64,000 bases of DNA from Candidatus Saccharimonadota bacterium (GCA_017540545.1 JAFYAV010000001.1:310001-374000); one strand, 5' to 3'. Positions 21,770 to 40,391 are shown, counted from the stretch's first letter. Made by a program: numbers and translations. Notes: generated from the letters alone by a model not told the origin.

Positions 21770-24550
21770 CTAGTAATACTTGCAGCTATGGTTACCATTT
21801 GAGCCGATGCTACAATAAATCCCTTCGGTGCCTTTGCCCGAGTTCATCACGTGCGCCTTTGGCAAATCTTTGTATGTATAGAAATATGATCTCACGCGAT
21901 TCAGCGCTGCTGAGCTTTGCGAGGACGTTTTAGCCATTTCAATCACATAGACGTTCTGGTTTGTAGTTAGTCCCAATACCCCCATGGCATCGGGCGCGTT
22001 GTTCATGCCATGGTTAGTTGCTTCGTAAAATGCAATATTTCCCAACTTACCAGCCCAATTGGCGGCAATCTTCTTGGCGACATTTGTCTCAGACGATACA
22101 GCTATCTGCCCGCCAAGTGCGCCAGTGAAAGCTTTAGTGCTCGCGTTAAACTTCGGGTTATTGTAGAGTGTTGTAGAACCGTTCCCGTATATCCCGCTTC
22201 TCGGCTTGAAATCGTAGCCGGCATTACTCAAGTCGCCAGGTATATAAATATACTTTTCGCCGCCATTCATCTTGACCGTGACGAAAGAGGCAATCGAGTT
22301 GGCGTCCGAACTGCAGTTGGATGTAGTCGAGCTAGAAGCGTAGGCGTAGAAGTATCTGTTCATGCCGCTCCCGCCCGTTTTCTTGACTAACTTCGCACTC
22401 GTCTTGTAGCTAAAATTCGGATACTCTGAACCGTCAATATATACATATTTCGAACCAGCCTTGACATATTTATATACACTCGTATCAGTCGCGGAGGTAA
22501 ACTGAATAATATTGCCAGTTTTGCAGGGATTCTTTCCGTTCTTTACATAACCCGCGAAGACGTCGCCGACATTGAATAGATTCAGTTTGACATATCTGCC
22601 AATGTTCAGCTCGTATTTTTCTTTGAGAATCTTGACCTTCGCTTTGTTATTTCCGACCAATTTTTTCACTTTCGCCTCGGTCATATTCGAGCTAGCGTGA
22701 ATCCATGCCCCTTCGGCTACTGCTGCTTTGGCGACTTTTGTAAAGCTGGCGGTCTTGCCAGCAATCGCCTCGTTCTTAATGATTACATTCCGAACGAGAA
22801 TTCTCTGGTCCTGGATCAGCTCAACCGCATTCCCCCAGTGATCGCCATCAAAATGCGAAATTACTAAGTAATCAATCACAACTTTAGTTGCGGCGCCTTG
22901 AGATTGTTTTAGGCGATTATAGATAATATTGCGGATTGCCGCGCTCTTGTCGCCCGTATCGAAAAGAATGAACTTTTTATCGCGCGTCTCAAGCAGAATC
23001 CCCTGATTATTCGAGAGCTCACTTGCTTTTGCGGCCTTTCGTTCTTTATTAATTGCTGGCACATTGCTCGTCAGGTCGAGGTAGTAGGCCTTAACATAAT
23101 CCATAGATGTCGAATAGATATAGATCCTCCTCGTAGCCGTCTTGCCGTTATGTGTTTTGGCGGTAATGTTCACGTAGCCAGTCTTCCCATAAGTGGTTAC
23201 CTTTCCTGCCGAAGATACGGTAGCTTTTGTCTTATCGCTGGTCGTCCAAGTTATGTTCTTGTATGTTGCATTACTTGGCACGACAGTTGCCGCGAGGGTC
23301 GTACTACTGTTGACTAACATGGCCTCACTACCAGAGATGGATACTCCCGTCGCGGGCACGATTACCACCTTTACTGTTGCCTTAGCCGTTTTACCGTTGG
23401 CGCTCTTCGCCGTAATTGTAACGGTTCCGCTTTTCAAGCCAGTAACGGTACCATTCTTCACGGTCGCCACCTTCGTGTTGCTGCTAGTCCAATTGATAGT
23501 TTTGTTCGTTGTATCGGTTGGCGTAAAGCTAACTTTCAGTTTGGTGGTTGCGCCAACTTTTACGGTCGTACTTTTCGTGTTCAGCTTAATGCTGATTGCC
23601 TTTACGCCATCGTAGCCAATTTTCGTATTTGTCGACGCACCGATGCCTAACGTCTTTGCGCTTACGGCGTAAATTGCCGTACTTGCCCCCCAACCAGTCA
23701 GGCTATTGTTATTCGGAATCCCTAACAGCATCGTCCCGTCATCCATGAAGACGACCTGCTCAATCACGTCCGTATGTATAGCTGCATTTGTAACTTCGAA
23801 CGACTTGATGAATTTATTCGTTTTGTGATTATAGAATCTTAACCTTGGTTGGCCACAGCTGTGCCTATAGGTATTCGTAACAATGTAGCTCCCCCATGTC
23901 CCGGGCCCCTCCTCGTACTTTTTGCAATCATCGGTCGCGGCCTTTGGGCTCTTAATCTTTTTGAAGTTCTTGTCGAAGAATACGTTCGCCTCCGTAGCCC
24001 CGCCCCAATAAAAGTCATTCTGCTGATTGTATGTCAGTTTGGAAGTTACGATTTGCTGGTTTTCCGCTCTGTAGAACTTTTCGAGTTTCATCGTTTGGTC
24101 ATTAAACTGAAAATATCCTTCCCGGACCGCTATCCAGATTTTGTCAGTCTTGCCGTTATAGGCTAGCGAACTACCGTGGCCGTAGCAACCCTCGTTGCCG
24201 AGTTTTGTACAACTGAAGTTCTTCTTCTTTGGAATCATGCCGACAATTTTCATCGTCTTGCGATCAATGAAATACAAGCGCACTTTGCCAGAATTTCCGC
24301 TGCCAAGATTAATTGAGTGCGCAATTACGATGTGTCTTGGAGTGATTGTCCACCCTTGCAGCTCGCCGCCGCTATCTATGAAGCATTTCGTACCGATGCC
24401 ACATTTTGTCTCGCTCCCAGTCTTAAAATGGGTTACGAGCTTTACTACATTTTTGTCTAATTTTTTCATAGCGCTGCTTGGCTCCGCATGAATGAAGCTG
24501 ATTGCCAAAGAAGATGCAATCAATGCAGCAATAAACACAACCTTTTTCAT
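21770..24550 (-). CDS. Secreted multidomain protein: propeller-like domain, Ig-like (BIG2) repeats, metallo-beta-lactamase fold
   Basis: 926 residues with a signal peptide (about 1-27). Residues about 30-320 are paralogous to the protein at 16905-18236 (CFIDSGGELQGWTITPRHIVIAH, CYGHGSSLAYN). Then come two bacterial Ig-like type 2 repeats (about 325-490, each with NKTINWTSSNTKVATV-like cores). From about 505 onward lies a metallo-beta-lactamase-fold domain like the extracellular domain of ComEC: ILFDTGD followed by ISHFDGDHWGN, the metal-binding H-x-D-x-D-H motif near residue 567, and a late TNHGMNN His. It probably hydrolyses phosphodiester or related substrates outside the cell, which is inference. 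A -10-like TATCAT lies 9 nt before the ATG. Confidence 0.82.
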   Translation of the reverse strand: MKKVVFIAALIASSLAISFIHAEPSSAMKKLDKNVVKLVTHFKTGSETKCGIGTKCFIDSGGELQGWTITPRHIVIAHSINLGSGNSGKVRLYFIDRKTMKIVGMIPKKKNFSCTKLGNEGCYGHGSSLAYNGKTDKIWIAVREGYFQFNDQTMKLEKFYRAENQQIVTSKLTYNQQNDFYWGGATEANVFFDKNFKKIKSPKAATDDCKKYEEGPGTWGSYIVTNTYRHSCGQPRLRFYNHKTNKFIKSFEVTNAAIHTDVIEQVVFMDDGTMLLGIPNNNSLTGWGASTAIYAVSAKTLGIGASTNTKIGYDGVKAISIKLNTKSTTVKVGATTKLKVSFTPTDTTNKTINWTSSNTKVATVKNGTVTGLKSGTVTITAKSANGKTAKATVKVVIVPATGVSISGSEAMLVNSSTTLAATVVPSNATYKNITWTTSDKTKATVSSAGKVTTYGKTGYVNITAKTHNGKTATRRIYIYSTSMDYVKAYYLDLTSNVPAINKERKAAKASELSNNQGILLETRDKKFILFDTGDKSAAIRNIIYNRLKQSQGAATKVVIDYLVISHFDGDHWGNAVELIQDQRILVRNVIIKNEAIAGKTASFTKVAKAAVAEGAWIHASSNMTEAKVKKLVGNNKAKVKILKEKYELNIGRYVKLNLFNVGDVFAGYVKNGKNPCKTGNIIQFTSATDTSVYKYVKAGSKYVYIDGSEYPNFSYKTSAKLVKKTGGSGMNRYFYAYASSSTTSNCSSDANSIASFVTVKMNGGEKYIYIPGDLSNAGYDFKPRSGIYGNGSTTLYNNPKFNASTKAFTGALGGQIAVSSETNVAKKIAANWAGKLGNIAFYEATNHGMNNAPDAMGVLGLTTNQNVYVIEMAKTSSQSSAALNRVRSYFYTYKDLPKAHVMNSGKGTEGIYCSIGSNGNHSCKYY

Positions 24551-29426: not shown

Positions 29427-29626
29427 TCGCGACAGATAGATTAATGTAGCTATCTGCCTAATGTCGCATCGACTATTGTTTCCAACTTCTTCACTATCAT
29501 CGTTATCGTAGTTTACGTATATTTTAGGTTGTTTCGACTGTCGGAATTATCAAAAATCTCTTTTGATAGTATTCTCACATGCTATTAAAAACTCCGAAAA
29601 AGCTTTACACGTTCTTTCTGATACAA

Positions 29627-29655
29627 TAAAATATACGTAAGTGGAATGTGTGAGT
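29627..29655 (+). promoter_or_regulatory. Promoter of the pilus operon with shared 17-nt initial sequence
   Basis: TAAAAT (29627-29632), 6 nt, then AAGTGGAATGTGTGAGT (29639-29655). The same 17 nt occur on the minus strand at 40422-40438, again 6 nt after TATAAT, upstream of the giant adhesin. The transcript would begin at or near this sequence. The rest of the 234-bp gap 29427-29660 shows nothing else clear. Confidence 0.75.
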
Positions 29656-29660
29656 AGTAT

Positions 29661-31433
29661 ATGAATCCTTTTTTTTGGAGTTATGTGGTTTTCGCTAAAT
29701 CGATGAAAATCGACATTAAGAGAATACTCACGATTCTTTTCCTTTCAGCCATAATCATCCTATTGGCTGTGATGTCGACATTTAATGTGGTTTTCGCTCG
29801 TACCGGAATGGACATTCCAGTCGAGATAAATTGGTCCGACCGGAGTTTAAGTTCTCGTCCAAGTAGCGTAACACTGCGCCTTATGAATGGAACTACGGAG
29901 GTGTCGAATATTGCCCTCACTCCGTCTGATGTGGATCCATCAGATAGCAATAAGTGGGTTGGTGTTTTTAGTGGCGTCCCATATAATGCAAACTACACAG
30001 TCGTAGAGGATTCGGTTTTAGACTACTCGATCACATCAAATAATCTTTCGCCAAGCATTTCGGCTGTTACGATTCTCAATTCTGCCAGTGATACAAATAC
30101 CTATACTCGAACTAATACCACGCATAATCTCGGGGACGTTAATTTCATTGTTCTCAGGATTGGCGATAGCTATTATGGTTGGACACTAGAATCATACCCC
30201 ACGGGAACTAAAAGAGATGAACTAACGAGCGCTATTAGAGCGCTAGCAGGGAATGGCAACGCTACGCTTAGCGAATATGAATATGGAGTGCCAGCTACTA
30301 TTTCAACAAACGCTATTGCTTTTTTATACGGCAATACCATTAATGTCTCCGGCAATGAAGGCAATATCTCAATCAGGATTACGCGCGGCCTTCTAGGTGG
30401 AGGCGAAGTATCAGCAGTCTATTACGGCAATTTGGTTCCGGGTGTAACTGATGGTGTTTCGTTCGAGAACGTAGAAATTATTCCTACCTATAACCTTACC
30501 GTTCACCATCTTCATGAAGACAATTCTCAGTTTGCGGCAGATACTATTACAACTTATAACGAGGGCGATCCTTATACTGCTAATCCAATTTCCAACAATC
30601 GGTACACGCCCGAACTTACCGTCGGTCAGGCCACGGGCACTATTACTCAAGACACCGAGGTAACTTATGTTTACCACCCAAAGTTTCATAATGTTGTTTA
30701 TCAATTTACCGGTAGCGTTCAGCCCCCAAATGCTAGCACTTTACTACCGGCAACTGTTACTTATGATGATGGCGACACTGTAACTGTCGCCCAAGCGCCA
30801 ACCGCTACCGGCTATCGTTTCCTCGGTTGGACCATGAATGGTCAAAGCGTAAGCGGGACCTTTACCATGCCTTCGCAAAATGTTACCATAAGCGGTAGTT
30901 GGGAGCAGTTCAGCGGATATTTTTCACCGAGCATTTCGAAGCAGATTACTAATCCTCAAGGTGTTTACCGTTACGGGGATACAGTAGAATTCTTGATTAC
31001 AGTATCAAACCCAGAATCATATCCAATCGCCAACGTCGAGGTAACAGAAAAACTCGTCGGCGCTAGCTTCTTGGCTCATTCTGGCTATACGGTTTCAAAT
31101 ACTGGCGACACGGCGACGATTCCTTCGATTCCGGCCAATGGCGCAGCTGTGCTCTATGCTGAATTCGATATCGCTGATGATATCACTCGAACCCTCACTA
31201 ACACGGTAGAAATTACCGGTGCTAGCGCAGATAACTATTATTTTCTCGATACATCACAAACATATATCGCCAGCGTCCAGTTCAATACCCAAAGCTGGCA
31301 AGATGTCCCGGTCTTAACCGGGGTAAACACCAATAGTACAATACTTTATTTTGTCCTAATGCTCCTAGGAGCAATCGGAATAGGAGGGGGTATTGTAGCA
31401 CATCGAGCAAACATAAAAGAAAGGGAGAAATGA
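29661..31433 (+). CDS. Surface adhesin, probable ancillary or tip protein of a sortase pilus
   Basis: 590 residues. A Sec signal is present (best as MKIDIKRILTILFLSAIIILLA, whose Met is at 29703; the first ATG is at 29661). Domains: an N-terminal beta region with isopeptide-like character, MucBP-like module (LTVHHLHEDNSQ, about 275-335), an InlB/SHIRT-type repeat (VVYQFTGSVQPP to GSWEQ) and a DUF11-like module (PSISKQITNPQGVYRYGDTV). The C-terminal sorting signal reads VPVLTGVNTNS, a hydrophobic helix, then KEREK. It lacks LPxTG. The next gene overlaps its stop by 4 nt. Confidence 0.85.
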   Translation: MNPFFWSYVVFAKSMKIDIKRILTILFLSAIIILLAVMSTFNVVFARTGMDIPVEINWSDRSLSSRPSSVTLRLMNGTTEVSNIALTPSDVDPSDSNKWVGVFSGVPYNANYTVVEDSVLDYSITSNNLSPSISAVTILNSASDTNTYTRTNTTHNLGDVNFIVLRIGDSYYGWTLESYPTGTKRDELTSAIRALAGNGNATLSEYEYGVPATISTNAIAFLYGNTINVSGNEGNISIRITRGLLGGGEVSAVYYGNLVPGVTDGVSFENVEIIPTYNLTVHHLHEDNSQFAADTITTYNEGDPYTANPISNNRYTPELTVGQATGTITQDTEVTYVYHPKFHNVVYQFTGSVQPPNASTLLPATVTYDDGDTVTVAQAPTATGYRFLGWTMNGQSVSGTFTMPSQNVTISGSWEQFSGYFSPSISKQITNPQGVYRYGDTVEFLITVSNPESYPIANVEVTEKLVGASFLAHSGYTVSNTGDTATIPSIPANGAAVLYAEFDIADDITRTLTNTVEITGASADNYYFLDTSQTYIASVQFNTQSWQDVPVLTGVNTNSTILYFVLMLLGAIGIGGGIVAHRANIKEREK

Positions 31434-32524
31434 AAAAACTTTCACTCACTGCAGGCGTAGCAGCTATCGCTCTAGCTGTTGCAAGTATTATTCCTGCGGC
31501 CGGCGCATTTGCGCAAACAGCAACAACATTTGACGGAAACATAAACTCCGTCACGCTAAAAAGGACCGTTTCTGGTGTCTCAAACCCAGTCACGAACACC
31601 TTTACCTATACCATCACGGAAACTAGCAAGCCTACTGGCGCAACTTCGCCAAGCGTACCGAGCAGTGCAACCATCGTTTTCGATGGTTCAGAAACAATCA
31701 CGAACAAATCAGTTGAAGAAACAACCACCATTGATCTTAGCGCCCTTAATTATGATAAGGCCGGTGATTATACCTGGACTATTGCCGAGACTGATTCGAC
31801 GGATCGTACCAACTATCCAATCGATTCCGATAGCAACAATTACACCTTGCAAATTTCCGTTCGCTACACGATGAACGGCAATACGCCGACTACAGCCTAT
31901 ACTGCCTACGTTACGCTTAAGAGCAAGGCCAATAATAAGGTTGAGCCAAATGCTACTTGGGGTAGCACTGCGGCTCGTACGTATATTTCAGCCACCGCTT
32001 CTACGACCGGCAACATGGCTGACGTAAATGAATGTTTTGCCTATACTGTTAATATCCCAGTAGGTAACGGCGTCGTTGCGGGCGATAGCTTTACTATTAG
32101 CTCTAACAGCGCTTGTACCCAAACTAGCGCGACGAGCGTTAAGGCTGGCACTCCAGCTACCGTTTATCTCAAGAATGGCGAAAGCTTAACTGTCGGTGTC
32201 AATAATGGTGCAAATGAGTTACCAGTTGGCGCAAAATATACTATTACCAAGACCAACGCTAGCGACGATTATATCGAAAAAATGGATGGCGAAGATGCTA
32301 ATACGGTCACTAAGACTACTGTAGCTGTCCCAACTGCCGGCGATTCGGCTGCAGAAGCTGCATTCGCCGCAAACAACCACACAGATATTGAGAACAACAA
32401 GGAAAAAGATCCACTAACGGGTATCGTCACCAATTACTGGTTCTATCTCGTTCTCTTAATCATCGGTGCCTTCGGTCTCATTGTCTTCATGCGCAAGCGC
32501 CAAGATGACGAAGAAGAGCAATAA
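31430..32524 (+). CDS. Backbone pilin, Spy0128-like (sortase-assembled pilus)
   Basis: 364 residues with a signal peptide ending near FAQTA. Two isopeptide-linkage domains follow in the manner of the streptococcal FctA/Spy0128 pilin: first domain with NTFTYTITETS and GDYTWTIAETDSTDR (the Glu-containing TIAE block), second with CFAYTVNIPVGN and YTITKTNASDDY. The C-terminal sorting signal is DPLTGIVTNYW, a hydrophobic helix, then MRKRQ. Overlaps the adhesin stop (ATGA), with GGGAG as Shine-Dalgarno, so the two are coupled. Family assignment rests on the motif layout; the polymer itself is inferred from the neighbouring sortase. Confidence 0.85.
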   Translation: MKKLSLTAGVAAIALAVASIIPAAGAFAQTATTFDGNINSVTLKRTVSGVSNPVTNTFTYTITETSKPTGATSPSVPSSATIVFDGSETITNKSVEETTTIDLSALNYDKAGDYTWTIAETDSTDRTNYPIDSDSNNYTLQISVRYTMNGNTPTTAYTAYVTLKSKANNKVEPNATWGSTAARTYISATASTTGNMADVNECFAYTVNIPVGNGVVAGDSFTISSNSACTQTSATSVKAGTPATVYLKNGESLTVGVNNGANELPVGAKYTITKTNASDDYIEKMDGEDANTVTKTTVAVPTAGDSAAEAAFAANNHTDIENNKEKDPLTGIVTNYWFYLVLLIIGAFGLIVFMRKRQDDEEEQ

Positions 32525-32557
32525 TAGGCTTAATTATATTAGACACAAATAAACACC

Positions 32558-33073
32558 ATGGACGGATTAAAGACCTTCTTAGATAAATATGGCGGTTGGG
32601 TTCGGCTGCTCGTCAAGATTGTCATACTAGTGAGTGTTCTGTGGCTCATCTTTGGCGTACTAATTGGTCTTCAGCGGGTAGAGGGAGTATCTATGTCTAA
32701 TCGCGTAGAGGACGGTGATCTCGTCCTATTCTCCCGTACGGATAAGACATATTATCCAGATGATGTCGTGCTGTTTGAGCGCGATAATGAAACGCACGTC
32801 TCATCGATACTAGCCTCTCCCGGCGATTTGATTACCTTAGACGAAGCTGGACGCCTGTACGTTAACGGCGCACGCGTGTCCGATACGGTTGTCTATAATC
32901 TCGCCGAGGGGGAGACGCCCTCTATCACTTTTCCGTTCCGCGTACCTACGGGGAGCTATTTCCTGCTCAATAAAAACCTCGAAGCAATGGATGATTCGCG
33001 CAGCTTCGGTGCGGTTTTCGAACAAAACATAAAGGGGAAAGTCGTAGGTATTCTCCGCACGAGGTCAATCTAA
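32558..33073 (+). CDS. Signal peptidase I-like protein lacking the catalytic Lys (SipA-like)
   Basis: 171 residues: N-terminal membrane helix (about 16-38), then a shortened S26 signal-peptidase fold. The nucleophile region GVSMSNRVEDGDLVLF keeps Ser45. The block that normally reads YVKRVxGLPGD is HVSSILASPGD, so the general-base Lys is Ser82. In group A Streptococcus pili the SipA/LepA protein of the FCT locus is a signal-peptidase homologue also lacking an intact dyad and acts in pilus assembly. A chaperone-like role is inferred here. No Shine-Dalgarno is seen before its ATG. Confidence 0.82.
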   Translation: MDGLKTFLDKYGGWVRLLVKIVILVSVLWLIFGVLIGLQRVEGVSMSNRVEDGDLVLFSRTDKTYYPDDVVLFERDNETHVSSILASPGDLITLDEAGRLYVNGARVSDTVVYNLAEGETPSITFPFRVPTGSYFLLNKNLEAMDDSRSFGAVFEQNIKGKVVGILRTRSI

Positions 33074-33074
33074 T

Positions 33075-33818
33075 ATGAAAAAGAATAAAAATGTGGACAA
33101 AATAAGGAGGCGCATCGAGCAACTGGTAGATTCAGTCTCTATGGTGGTCTTCTTGCTCTTTTTCTTGATTGGCTTATATGCACTATTAGATATCCACGCC
33201 GTCAATATCAGCGCCAAGATGGATGAAGAAATTGCGAGCTTGGCGCCAGATGCGGATGCTGATGTAGATTTAGCGGAATTAAAAAAGATTAACCCCGAAA
33301 TTATCGCTTGGGTGAAGATTAAGGATACGAATATAGACTATCCAGTCGTTCAAGCCAAAAATAATACCAAATACCTAACTAGAAACTATCGTGGCGACTT
33401 TGCCACTGCGGGTAGTATCTTCTTGGACTACCGCAATGATGGTTTCGATGATGACTTTTCGTTAATTTATGGACACCGAATGGATGGCCAACGCATGTTC
33501 GGCGGTATCTCGCTTTTTGAGCAAAAAGACTATTTCGATAAACATAAGGATGGCATTCTCTATACCGAAGATGGCGTTTACGATCTCGAAATCTCAGACT
33601 TTTCAGTCGTAGATGTCGATCGCACATCAATCTATAATCACGATAGCAATCGCAATAAGCGCAACAGTATGGTTATTCATGAAGTGCGTTCATTCGCAAA
33701 GCAATCACGCGTAGTTGAATATGGTGACGACGATAAAATCATTGTACTCTCAACCTGCGATAAGGATTCCAAACACTATCGCAATGTTTTGCTTGCTAAG
33801 ATGATCCCGCGTCGCTAA
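33075..33818 (+). CDS. Class B-type sortase of the pilus operon
   Basis: 247 residues: N-terminal anchor helix (about 20-41) and a sortase domain of class B style (INPEIIAWVKI, NIDYPVVQ, GSIFLDYRN). The catalytic triad is in place: His134 (YGHRMDG), Cys228 (LSTCDKD) and Arg236 (HYRNVLL). The enzyme should cleave the LTG-type signals of the adhesin and the pilin and join them. It begins 2 nt after the signal-peptidase-like gene, with GAGGT as Shine-Dalgarno. A hairpin terminates the unit at 33844-33878. The class B resemblance matches SrtC2 in streptococcal FCT-3 pilus loci. Confidence 0.92.
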   Translation: MKKNKNVDKIRRRIEQLVDSVSMVVFLLFFLIGLYALLDIHAVNISAKMDEEIASLAPDADADVDLAELKKINPEIIAWVKIKDTNIDYPVVQAKNNTKYLTRNYRGDFATAGSIFLDYRNDGFDDDFSLIYGHRMDGQRMFGGISLFEQKDYFDKHKDGILYTEDGVYDLEISDFSVVDVDRTSIYNHDSNRNKRNSMVIHEVRSFAKQSRVVEYGDDDKIIVLSTCDKDSKHYRNVLLAKMIPRR

Positions 33819-33843
33819 CAAACAAATTGGCCAAAACCAAATG

Positions 33844-33878
33844 TCCCCGGTTTGCTGAGCTGGGGGATTTTCTTTTTT
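33844..33878 (+). terminator. Terminator after the pilus operon
   Basis: TCCCC pairs with GGGGA around a GC-rich loop, followed by TTTTCTTTTTT. Confidence 0.75.
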
Positions 33879-35693: not shown

Positions 35694-38600
35694 CTAGGAC
35701 TTTCGTTTCGTAATAATATATCCGCCGCAACCAAGTCCGGAAATTAGAACACCAACCAATATGAAGTATTTAGCAATACCGCCATCAATGGTCTTTGGGT
35801 TTACGGACTCCGGTATCTTCTCGTAACGGTAAATCACGACATGTTCTTCCTCGCCAAAAGCAAGGTCTGGAGTTTCGCGGATAAGTTTATACCCAGGGAT
35901 TTCTGGTGGGGTATTGTCGCTAACGTCCCCAACAAAGCCATCCTCGATCTGCTCACGTTGGATCTCTACTCCATTCTCGTCTATATAGCGGAAGACAATC
36001 TTGGACGGAGTCTTAATAATAGTCTCAGCGCTGTCAGCGGCATCGTTGTCTTTATTGCTGAGCGCTATGGTAGCTTCAGCCGTAACCAGAAGCCGATCTT
36101 TAGCTTTTGCGCCATCATAAACTAATGAAATATGACGCTCAATAGAGACGTCCTCTCCGTCGGTATAAGTATTACGGTTAGCGCTTTGGATCCAAGTTAA
36201 GGTTTTATTGTTTGCATCATATGCGGCACCACTTAACTCAGATTCGCCTATCACGATTGGATATGGAAGTTTCACGACAATAGTAATATCTGTAGCTCCA
36301 ATATAGTCCTTGATGCTTGCGGAATATTGCAAATCATAATTAATTGTCGCATTTTTACTTGAGACAGTTTCCGGTGCGGTAATTTTAATACTTGAACTGA
36401 GTTTAGGATCTTTCTTTTGATAGTAGTAAGTTACGTCAATAGCAGGCTTGCCGACAGTGCCTCTATAATCTGCTGGTTGATCAGAAACTAGTTCGTAATC
36501 TTGATACCGAGCTGGAATATTAGCTAATGGATGGGTTTCATAGTCTTCCGTATAATTCTTAGTTTCAACGACATCTGGAGCGACTTCATCCGTAGTATCT
36601 TTGATGTAATAGTGGGTAGTGATGGTGGCAGTTTTAAGCTTGTAGTAGTAGGTAACTACAACATCGCCAGCAACAGGACCAGATGCATCACCTACGATGG
36701 AATCGTATTCGTAATTACTATCAACGGAAGCCTGAGAGGTAACATAGGTTTGACCCCAATAAACCGTACTAATCTCATCATTGGCTAATTTCTCTGTAGT
36801 GCCTTTTTTATAGTGATGAACCGTAAGAGTAGCAGTCTTTAGGTTGAAACTGGCATTAAAAGTGTGGCCATTATTTGTAGTTTCGGTAGTTTTTGCGTAA
36901 TTTGCAATATCAGCAGTCGAGAAATTATAGGTAAGTTTTGCGCCGGTCGCACTATATCTTGGTAATTCTTTAGTCCAAGATCTATTACCATTTGTTGGGA
37001 CGGAAATGTTTGTAGTAGTGCCATCACTGGCCGTCGCAACAATCACTACGGAAGCTGGGCGGGTGCTGAATTCATTATTTCGATCGTTGAAGGTCACTGT
37101 GCCAGAATAGTTTTCGTTGGCAATATACTCTACAACTCCGATATTATACGTCGCTTCTCCGGCAACGTCACTCGGCGAAATAGGGCCAACATAGGCGGTA
37201 GCATGGATTGGATTACTAGTCTTGCTACCCTCGGCTTGATTGTCTGTATTATATGCGCCAGCATTGCTAGCGGTGCCTTTTGGCGTGAATAAGTAAGCGA
37301 CACCAGCGCCATTGATTGGATGCTTATTCGTGACCGTAATATAATAACCGTCAGCATTCATAGCGAGCTCAATAAAGCTATATTTACCATTTTCATCGGT
37401 AGTAGTTGAACGAACGAGGCGATTCGATGACTTGTCGTACAAATCAACCTTCCAGCCAGCCTCTTTTAGATCCTGCTCGCCGGAGTCTTTCTTACCATTT
37501 TCATTGCTATCAATAAAGATTTGACCAGACATCTTACCGTCAGCAAGCTTCACGGATACGTAGCTTCCCTTATACCAGCCAGCAAAGATATCTCCAGCGG
37601 AATTCGTAAGTTGCTGGAAATAAAGAGGTCGCCAAGTATTAATTGCGCCATCACTCGCATTTGTGGCGTCTACTACTTTTAATTTATAGATAAAATCGTA
37701 ATTGTCGGCCACGCCTGGTTGATTTGCCGGTATATTCGTCGCAGTAATCTTAATACAATTTACGTCCTCCCAATCAGACGCAGTCCAGCCGGAAGTATTA
37801 GTGGTAAATTTTGCATTTTCAGCTTCAAGGTTAGTGCCATTATCCGAAGGTGTGACATCCTTTCCGTAATATATAACAAAATAATTATTATTCGGGTTCG
37901 AGATAGCACCGGTAAGCGCAGTAGAAAATTCAAAATTTTGATTATTATAACTGAGACTATTCCAGTTCTGATTTTTCTTAGGTATCGGGAAATAAATAGT
38001 AGTTGGGCCAGGAACAGCAACGCCCGAGTTATTAATCATAGTAGCTTTCATGTCGGCCAGCGACCCTTCAGCTGAACCGATAGTAATCGGATTTGATTCC
38101 TCAGACCAAGTAAGCCAAGTATCGGAGCTAGTATGTTTTCCGGCATTATCTACGCCGATAGATGCCCAACCGCGGATTTGGTAATAATTATTCGTAGCGG
38201 CAAATATCGTATGAGCACTGTCGCCACTAAGTCCAAACGGATCACCGCGCTTACCGTGCGTGGATAGTGTTACGGTCGTGTCTGGATCATGAACGAACAC
38301 CATATCCGCTATTTGATATTTTTGATCTGGAGTCGTCATGTCGGTGTTTACCGTCCAAGATACTTTAATGCCCACATTCTCATACCACTTCCCGTTTTCG
38401 CCGATATAGGTCGACATTAGATTCGCTAAACCATCTGGAACATTATGGCCGTCAATTTTATAAATGCGAGCTGTAGCAGTATCTTCGTATGTTACCTGCC
38501 CAAATAAGCTCGTAATATCGATATCGCCACGCGCAGGACCATTAGTTATTGTTAAGTTTGAGATTGGAAGATAATTACCAGCTGCATCTTTAGCTTCTTG

Positions 38601-40391
38601 ACGGATATATATTACTGGGTTCTGAACTGTATTGTTGTAGCGAACAGTTCCGGCCCAGTTCGTTACATTGACCGTAAACTTCAACGAGGCGCCCGCGTTA
38701 ATTATTTGCGTGCCAAGATTCGTTATATCAATACTGCCCTTATTGGTACGCGTGGTAATGATTTTTGCCACACCAGTAGTATTTGACGGATTATTAATAT
38801 CAAATACCTCAATCGTCGCTATGCCAGGCACATCATCACGCAATAGACGTCCAACATAGGAAAATGCTTCCGATGCAACGGCGTCACGTTGAATCTGAGT
38901 GGCGGCAGGAATGACACCTAAATCGTATTCAATTTTAGATATATAGTCGCCATACTCTAAGCCAAAATCACTGTAGGTGAAAGTGCCAGCAAAACCGCTA
39001 GCATTGCATGAACGATTAACCGTAACATCTTTCGAAACACCGCTCTTAGTTTCAACATGAACAGTAGAAATAGTACCATTAGGTTGGCAAACAAGTTCGA
39101 CACCCATCACGCCAAGAACGGATGTATCGAACTCCATTTTCATTCTTTTTGGCGCACTATCCGTACCGCCACGGTTATTTAAACGTCCTACTCCTAACGC
39201 GCCTTGTGAAAATTGCTCAGTGGTCGTCGTAGCTCCGTATTGAATATCATAGGCGGTTCCTTCTTTCGTTGGATTAAGACCCGACAATCCGAGAGTGACT
39301 TTCTCGCCCGATGGCAAAACTTGATATTTTACATTTTGCGTGTTGGAAAAATTAATCGTACGCGTAGTGCCGCCGATTTGGTATAATGTCGCTTCTCCCG
39401 TGCCAGTAACGGTGTATATTTTTCCATCTGGCGCGTTGTCTGGAATAACAATTGCATACGGAAAAGCTTCTGCAGGATTCACCGCGGCACTCGGTTTCCT
39501 TGTTATAGTATAGATTCCTTCGCTACTTCTACTGTCGTCCATGGTATATTGAGGGTTATTACCCATCAACACTATTCTGGCCGACGGGTCATCTACGGTT
39601 AAGACAGTCTTAATTTCTTTAAATAGCGTTTGTGCATGATCTTGTTCAATTAAGTATGAGCCAATAATCATACGATAATAGCCCTCGTATGAATAATGTG
39701 TTTCACCCTTTAAGACATATATATTGTAATTTGATTGATAAAATTTGCCGCTAGTACGCCGTCCGTTCGGAACGCTAACATTTAGATGAGCTGCCTCAGC
39801 TTCAGTTTCGCCGATAAACAACTTCGCTTCGATGGCGTTTTCGATGTAATCCATATCAATCAGCATATCGGCCTTGACTTTCATGTTTAACGTGACCGCC
39901 TGTGTCCCTTCGCTGAGATAATACGTGCGATAACCCGAGTCCGGATAATTATAGTTCAAAATTGGAGCATCCTCTAAAGCAGTCGTCTCGATGCCGTTTG
40001 TTCCCATTGAGGAGTTTAATTGCGAGCGCAAGTTTTCATCCGACGCACCGTCGTCAACCCAAATCATACCGACGGGTAGTTTAATGACGACTTTCTTTGT
40101 AGATATTGGCAGATTACGTATTGCTATTTTAACGTCATATATCTTCGAATCAGCATTACGATCGCCATTTTTTATGTAGCTAAAGTTCGCTAAGGCATTT
40201 TCAACACTAGGCGAAAAATCAACACTGCCATTATCGTCAGTAATAACAGCGGAAATATATTGCGATGCAGCATGAGAGAATAACGGATTTATTATTCCAA
40301 TATAAGCGATGGTCGATAAAACGATTAGTGCAAATGCGCCAAAAACAAGTTTCCTCATTTTCGCACCGACCTTCTTGCGAATTGATTTCAT
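35694..40391 (-). CDS. Giant multidomain surface adhesin with NPKT-type sorting signal
   Basis: 1565 residues. An N-terminal signal (FGAFALIVLSTIAYIGIINPL) leads to a long beta-rich ectodomain. At about 1005-1130 is an SdrD-B/Cna-type module (GQIFIDSNENGKKDSGEQD), then two MucBP-like modules (LTVHHYKKGTTEKL, ITTHYYIKDTTDEV), a DUF11-like stretch and another MucBP-like block (FRYIDENGVEIQREQ). The C-terminus is NPKTIDGG, a helix, then KRKS, a sortase class B-like sorting signal. It has a GGAG Shine-Dalgarno and a promoter element shared with the pilus operon. Likely a host-cell or glycan adhesin anchored by a sortase. Confidence 0.88.
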   Translation of the reverse strand: MKSIRKKVGAKMRKLVFGAFALIVLSTIAYIGIINPLFSHAASQYISAVITDDNGSVDFSPSVENALANFSYIKNGDRNADSKIYDVKIAIRNLPISTKKVVIKLPVGMIWVDDGASDENLRSQLNSSMGTNGIETTALEDAPILNYNYPDSGYRTYYLSEGTQAVTLNMKVKADMLIDMDYIENAIEAKLFIGETEAEAAHLNVSVPNGRRTSGKFYQSNYNIYVLKGETHYSYEGYYRMIIGSYLIEQDHAQTLFKEIKTVLTVDDPSARIVLMGNNPQYTMDDSRSSEGIYTITRKPSAAVNPAEAFPYAIVIPDNAPDGKIYTVTGTGEATLYQIGGTTRTINFSNTQNVKYQVLPSGEKVTLGLSGLNPTKEGTAYDIQYGATTTTEQFSQGALGVGRLNNRGGTDSAPKRMKMEFDTSVLGVMGVELVCQPNGTISTVHVETKSGVSKDVTVNRSCNASGFAGTFTYSDFGLEYGDYISKIEYDLGVIPAATQIQRDAVASEAFSYVGRLLRDDVPGIATIEVFDINNPSNTTGVAKIITTRTNKGSIDITNLGTQIINAGASLKFTVNVTNWAGTVRYNNTVQNPVIYIRQEAKDAAGNYLPISNLTITNGPARGDIDITSLFGQVTYEDTATARIYKIDGHNVPDGLANLMSTYIGENGKWYENVGIKVSWTVNTDMTTPDQKYQIADMVFVHDPDTTVTLSTHGKRGDPFGLSGDSAHTIFAATNNYYQIRGWASIGVDNAGKHTSSDTWLTWSEESNPITIGSAEGSLADMKATMINNSGVAVPGPTTIYFPIPKKNQNWNSLSYNNQNFEFSTALTGAISNPNNNYFVIYYGKDVTPSDNGTNLEAENAKFTTNTSGWTASDWEDVNCIKITATNIPANQPGVADNYDFIYKLKVVDATNASDGAINTWRPLYFQQLTNSAGDIFAGWYKGSYVSVKLADGKMSGQIFIDSNENGKKDSGEQDLKEAGWKVDLYDKSSNRLVRSTTTDENGKYSFIELAMNADGYYITVTNKHPINGAGVAYLFTPKGTASNAGAYNTDNQAEGSKTSNPIHATAYVGPISPSDVAGEATYNIGVVEYIANENYSGTVTFNDRNNEFSTRPASVVIVATASDGTTTNISVPTNGNRSWTKELPRYSATGAKLTYNFSTADIANYAKTTETTNNGHTFNASFNLKTATLTVHHYKKGTTEKLANDEISTVYWGQTYVTSQASVDSNYEYDSIVGDASGPVAGDVVVTYYYKLKTATITTHYYIKDTTDEVAPDVVETKNYTEDYETHPLANIPARYQDYELVSDQPADYRGTVGKPAIDVTYYYQKKDPKLSSSIKITAPETVSSKNATINYDLQYSASIKDYIGATDITIVVKLPYPIVIGESELSGAAYDANNKTLTWIQSANRNTYTDGEDVSIERHISLVYDGAKAKDRLLVTAEATIALSNKDNDAADSAETIIKTPSKIVFRYIDENGVEIQREQIEDGFVGDVSDNTPPEIPGYKLIRETPDLAFGEEEHVVIYRYEKIPESVNPKTIDGGIAKYFILVGVLISGLGCGGYIITKRKS

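Follow-up and report, generated by a model that had tools for sequence, protein, structure and literature searches.

In this study, we describe a predicted sortase pilus operon in a 64,000-nucleotide stretch of a Candidatus Saccharimonadota genome (GCA_017540545.1 JAFYAV010000001.1:310001-374000), hereafter called the window, which corresponds to C1:310001-374000 of a 0.8-Mb, two-contig metagenome-assembled genome (MAG) that is 73.5% complete. Four coupled open reading frames on the + strand, from 29661 to 33818, encode in order an adhesin, a pilin, a signal-peptidase-like protein and a sortase; the adhesin and pilin frames overlap by 4 nt, and a gap of 1 nt separates the signal-peptidase-like gene from the sortase gene. 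The limits 29627-33878 set in an earlier note on this DNA fit a single transcription unit, with a promoter-like site before the genes and a terminator-like hairpin after them. The features are as follows.

29604..29632, + strand: promoter-like site TTTACA-17-TAAAAT, 10/12 matches in a consensus scan, called by consensus alone.
29661..31433, + strand: LTG-anchored adhesin, a putative tip or ancillary pilin of 590 aa, likely true start GTG 29685, with Cna_B, MucBP, InlB B-repeat and DUF11 modules.
31308..31322, + strand: adhesin sorting signal PVLTG, followed by a transmembrane helix and a basic tail; kept in orthologues.
31430..32524, + strand: backbone pilin, Spy0128/FctA-like, two domains, 364 aa, assigned from DUF7601 and strep_pil_rpt matches, a profile and a structure model.
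31937..31939, + strand: codon of Lys170 (Spy0128 Lys161), predicted acceptor of the inter-subunit isopeptide bond.
32033..32035, + strand: codon of Cys202, predicted disulfide partner in pilin domain 2.
32114..32116, + strand: codon of Cys229, predicted disulfide partner in pilin domain 2.
32408..32422, + strand: pilin sorting signal DPLTG, in which Thr330 (Spy0128 Thr311) is the predicted bond donor.
32558..33073, + strand: SipA/LepA-like signal-peptidase homologue, Ser45 kept and the catalytic Lys replaced by Ser82.
33075..33818, + strand: class B sortase with His134, Cys228 and Arg236 intact.
33844..33876, + strand: intrinsic terminator-like hairpin ending the operon, a 10-pair stem and a T-run.

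The earlier reading of these genes as adhesin, Spy0128-like pilin, signal-peptidase-like protein and class B sortase held for all four, each with family matches above curated cut-offs. The pilin scores 37.5 bits against Pfam DUF7601 (cut-off 27) and also matches strep_pil_rpt. The single sequence finds only a weak match to T3.2 among solved structures (E 0.011), and a 30-sequence pilin profile reaches T18.1 at 6e-31 and Spy0128 (3b2m) at 1.5e-18; Pfam FctA is also matched by five of the 30 family members. The AlphaFold (AF2) model of the pilin, with a predicted local distance difference test score (pLDDT) of 86.8, superposes on Spy0128 with a VIA Z of 19.4 and a root-mean-square deviation of 2.9 over 256 aligned residues, followed by PitB (Z 13.7) and Cpa. 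Both the profile search and the structure prediction that the earlier note had proposed as checks thus speak for a backbone pilin, which in the model takes the two-domain FctA/Spy0128 fold.

In group A Streptococcus (GAS) pili, K161 of Spy0128 is the proven inter-subunit Lys and is bonded to T311 of the adjacent subunit (PMC7900414). With the Spy0128 numbering anchored by the mutant structures 3gle (N168A) and 3gld (E117A) among the matches, Lys170 of the window pilin aligns with K161, and the column is Lys in 42/42 pilins of the genus. It is one of just four columns at least 95% identical and the sole near-invariant charged residue across these diverse proteins. In a 30-row alignment the Thr of the LTG motif, Thr330, never varies. 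The backbone carries both a predicted acceptor Lys at the K161 position and an xxxTG sorting signal. The signals PVLTGV (adhesin) and DPLTGI (pilin) are, as first described, of the LTG type, each with a hydrophobic stretch and a basic tail, and conserved in orthologues. The conserved Lys and the related loci on which the earlier note had staked its reading are both found: pilin, full-length SipA-like protein and sortase occur together in 27 genomes, and chance is therefore excluded.

The sortase scores 179 bits against the class B family TIGR03064 (cut-off 153.75), and its strongest solved relatives are 4y4q (3.8e-37) and the GAS pilus sortase Spy0129 (3psq, 6e-31). The His/Cys/Arg triad, intact in the operon copy, is retained in 66/66 sortases. 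In the sortase tree the pilus sortases group with Spy0129 and 4y4q. A second set of stand-alone SrtB copies, present in most examined genomes of the genus, forms a clade with support of 100/100 on the side of the Bacillus anthracis and Listeria SrtB, the support of the deep split itself being just 84/67. The stand-alone clade is a candidate housekeeping anchor for the pili. These copies were seen in a conserved neighbourhood of ~794-aa and ~915-aa genes (loci L047, L053-L055, L057, L059, L061, L063-L069, L071-L073, L078, L085, L088, L091 and L094). Another surface protein of the window, 1565 aa long and encoded at 35694-40391 on the - strand, has SdrD_B, MucBP repeats and the sorting signal NPKTIDGG, which is unlike those of the pilus proteins. 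Signals of the NPxT type turn up next to other loci as well and may be those of the stand-alone clade.

The signal-peptidase-like protein scores 95 bits against the signal peptidase I (SPase I) family TIGR02227 (cut-off 47), and its best solved relative is GAS SipA (4n31, 3.3e-20), far ahead of true signal peptidases. A Ser-Lys dyad is needed by SPase I. The catalytic Lys is missing in 32/32 full-length pilus-linked homologues, with Ser, Ala, Leu or Gly at that place, and the Ser is also lost in many of them (Ala, Gly, Asn, Val or Ile); the separate SPase I of the genome (L098) retains the usual IIKR box, read in register by eye after the automatic alignment had misplaced the box across an insertion. 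The protein is among the best conserved of the operon, with 96% identity to the nearest orthologue and 73-81% to others, and its ratio of nonsynonymous to synonymous substitution rates (dN/dS) of 0.05-0.08 points to strong purifying selection. The loss of the Lys under such selection fits an assembly factor of the SipA type, and judged from these residues the protein is probably a pseudo-enzyme lacking the SPase dyad. GAS SipA has no dyad and no peptidase activity and is essential for pilus polymerisation (PMC4049620), and SipA is required for polymerisation in both GAS and pneumococcus (PMC7900414, PMC10548224). That the gene instead encodes an active pilin-specific signal peptidase is quite improbable: Ser45 is retained in the window type, the score lies above the SPase I cut-off and the dyad is intact in some of the streptococcal homologues (PMC4049620), but the Lys is absent from every full-length linked member, the Ser is replaced in many, and the nearest solved relative is itself inactive.

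We consider it very probable that the operon builds a covalently polymerised sortase pilus of the streptococcal FCT/pilus islet 2 (PI-2) kind. Supporting this are the homology of pilin, SipA-like protein and sortase, the modelled fold, the conserved Lys and Thr, the sortase triad, the loss of the SPase Lys and purifying selection. Pilin and adhesin would pass through Sec and stay in the membrane by virtue of their C-terminal signals; a Thr-Gly cut in the LTG motif by the class B sortase would let it join Thr330 of each pilin to Lys170 of its neighbour; the Thr of the adhesin LTG would be joined to a pilin Lys, capping the fibre; and the SipA-like protein, a signal-peptidase fold without the catalytic Lys, would aid the sortase as a non-proteolytic assembly factor. 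The adhesin would then sit at the pilus tip, and another sortase would presumably anchor the fibre to the wall.

Several observations weigh against this interpretation. Polymerisation is inferred here from genes and models, and residual chemistry at the retained Ser45 is conceivable. No further LTG protein was found in the operon, so no basal pilin of the FctB type is encoded. The structure model of the adhesin is weak (pLDDT 75, predicted template modelling score 0.39), and fold searches with it returned single-domain or low-TM matches only and defined no ligand. The intramolecular isopeptide positions are poorly kept: the K36 site is Arg in 29/42 pilins and the N168 site is Ser in 27/42, and the window pilin has Arg, Glu and Ser in domain 1 and Ala, Lys and Asn at K179, E258 and N303 in domain 2. 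These points leave room for an unlikely alternative in which the sortase does no more than attach the adhesin and the pilin singly to peptidoglycan, the conserved Lys being structural and no polymer formed; class B sortases often perform such single-protein anchoring, and neither a basal pilin nor complete pilus-stiffening triads are in evidence. Against it stand the dedicated SipA-like protein, strongly selected without its catalytic Lys and of a type needed for polymerisation in both streptococci, the coincidence of the one near-invariant charged residue with the known cross-link site, and the stand-alone SrtB clade, which could perform simple anchoring.

Of the Spy0128-like pilin proposed in the earlier note, the fold stood, but the intramolecular isopeptide triads are incomplete. 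By alignment, neither domain of the window pilin has a complete Lys-Glu-Asn triad, and therefore its intramolecular isopeptide bonds should be absent. A Cys pair (202/229 in the window) is present in 7/7 window-type pilins, and the domain-2 triad is kept in eight pilins without the pair and in one with it. The association across the 42 pilins, whose rows are related, is suggestive only (Fisher p = 0.055), and a disulfide in domain 2 may replace the isopeptide bond. The genome carries one DsbA-like gene; a VKOR partner for its product was searched for and not found in this incomplete genome.

The adhesin probably starts at GTG 29685 rather than at 29661, because GGAG lies directly upstream of the former and orthologues begin at the aligned 'MVF'. 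Its Cna_B, MucBP, InlB repeat (Flg_new_2) and DUF11 modules are family matches above curated cut-offs, and its QDVPVLTG signal is conserved among orthologues. The N-terminal domain is the most variable part (identity of 40-49% to four of five orthologous adhesins, and 72% to the nearest), and adhesin and pilin have a dN/dS of 0.19-0.23. In another genome (G020, L049:11043-14762) two adhesin genes lie in tandem; their C-terminal halves are nearly identical and their N-terminal domains differ, which suggests cassette-like tip variation.

With regard to known systems, streptococcal FCT/PI-2 pilus proteins are the best or near-best solved relatives of three of the four operon proteins. As in the FCT-2/3/4 loci of S. 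pyogenes (Cpa, FctA/Spy0128, SipA, SrtC1/Spy0129 and FctB), there is a homologous two-domain backbone with the acceptor Lys at the same position, a pseudo signal peptidase of the SipA type, a class B sortase and LPxTG-like xxxTG signals. The FCT parts list claimed in the earlier note is therefore borne out for pilin, SipA-like protein and sortase; gene order and basal subunit differ, the GAS order being cpa-sipA-fctA-srtC-fctB with a basal FctB as opposed to adhesin-pilin-SipA-sortase here. The operon also differs in its LTG signals, incomplete triads, domain-2 Cys pair and phylum, and homology of the modular adhesin to the FCT Cpa is not established. Because the order departs from FCT and no FctB-type subunit is encoded, the two-subunit PI-2 pilus of S. 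pneumoniae (PitA, PitB, SipA, SrtG1 and SrtG2), likewise a minimal pilus with SipA, a dedicated sortase and no basal pilin (PMC10548224), is an equally good model, although PitB fits the pilin less well than Spy0128 does and PI-2 has two sortases and a VTPTG motif where a single sortase and DPLTG are found here. The type IV pili of Saccharibacteria (TM7x T4P-1 and T4P-2) are likewise surface filaments of the same phylum used in host contact (PMC12206443), but they are non-covalent, retractable filaments made by unrelated machinery without a sortase. Actinomyces FimA with MdbA resembles the present case as a sortase pilin stabilised by a disulfide. The FimA pilin itself is of the SpaA type, works with a class C sortase and has another acceptor-Lys motif. 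An MdbA-like family is known across the candidate phyla radiation (CPR), and over half of the CPR genomes carry a sortase (PMC6744442).

The system is confined to one genus. In a set of 151 genomes, all of which have some sortase, a class B sortase is present in 43/45 genomes of the genus and in 4/100 other genera, and DUF7601 was found in the same genus and three others; outside the genus, in a 380-genome sample of the phylum, the pilin profile gave one weak match and the class B sortase occurred in two genera. The closest named loci in the sortase search were all in Saccharibacteria MAGs, one from yak rumen (RGIG10081), and the organism belongs to Saccharibacteria, in line with the genome type first proposed. 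An origin of the operon by contamination or chimerism from a rumen Firmicute is scarcely credible and was rejected: its likeness to streptococcal pili and its source in an incomplete MAG would suit this, but it lies inside a 463-kb contig, its GC is that of its surroundings, and it has orthologues in many Saccharibacteria genomes, independent public MAGs included. The operon occupies different chromosomal contexts in different species, and a conserved context was rejected, as the genes that flank it in the window adjoin it in none of the examined orthologous loci. A search among plasmids for a Firmicute donor returned just distant class B sortases and ordinary signal peptidases.

The same genome has a second pilus locus (C1:33481-35586, L038:8482-10587) with a pilin, a mini SipA of ~100 aa and a class B sortase beside a glycosyltransferase-like gene; miniature SipA forms at this locus span 72-110 aa. 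A guess from gene lengths that GroEL/GroES lie there was rejected, since the 540-aa gene is glycosyltransferase-like and the 121-aa gene looks to encode a membrane protein. In-frame TGA codons recur at the second locus (L038, L086, L089, L095, L101, L102, L104, L105, L106 and L108-L110), and several sites are common to several species; none occurs in the window operon. Exactly one TGA is present in 12 of ~117 sortase matches and TAA or TAG in none. Of these TGAs, five coincide with the conserved Trp of an A-W-[LIV] motif and six lie at another position, where L038 has Trp; a TGA also stands in one column shared by eight pilins. Release factor 2 is present, the tRNA-Trp found has a CCA anticodon, and the tRNAs read (30/40 matched loci) include none with a UCA anticodon. 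UGA may be read as Trp in selected genes; selenocysteine is not favoured, because the residue in homologues is Trp rather than Cys. A gene that is dprA-like by motif (L065:149, L085:16827) likewise has an in-frame TGA, at a position occupied by Tyr or Trp in its homologues. Elsewhere in the window, a gene at 21770-24550 on the - strand encodes a secreted protein of 926 aa in which a metallo-beta-lactamase fold is joined to Big_2 domains.

The earlier note knew of no sortase pilus clearly described in this phylum, and likewise the open-access literature, with subscription papers and preprints outside its scope, gave general mentions only and no report for Saccharibacteria or Patescibacteria; priority is not proven. 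Host attachment by Patescibacteria is an open question on which work has centred on type IV pili, by which cultured Saccharibacteria make host contact (PMC12206443). A role of the present pilus in epibiont attachment, as first proposed, is plausible, and its putative use would be attachment to host cells or rumen surfaces. As a tentative proposal that we hold to be possible but somewhat doubtful as a whole, a rumen epibiotic Saccharibacteria lineage may have gained a sortase pilus of the streptococcal type in a single event, made it near-universal in the genus with disulfides replacing the stabilising isopeptide bonds, and come to use it, in addition to type IV pili, to tether itself covalently to host bacteria or rumen surfaces, in portable operons with diversifying adhesin tips and fixed assembly machinery. 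A covalent sortase pilus in nearly the whole of a rumen genus and in almost no other sampled genus would be a concrete second candidate for attachment, open to experiment through expression outside the organism, which is uncultured. Moreover, its pilins seemingly gave up intramolecular isopeptide bonds, and ~30 diverse, non-Firmicute, full-length SipA-type proteins without the catalytic Lys bear on the unsolved role of SipA.

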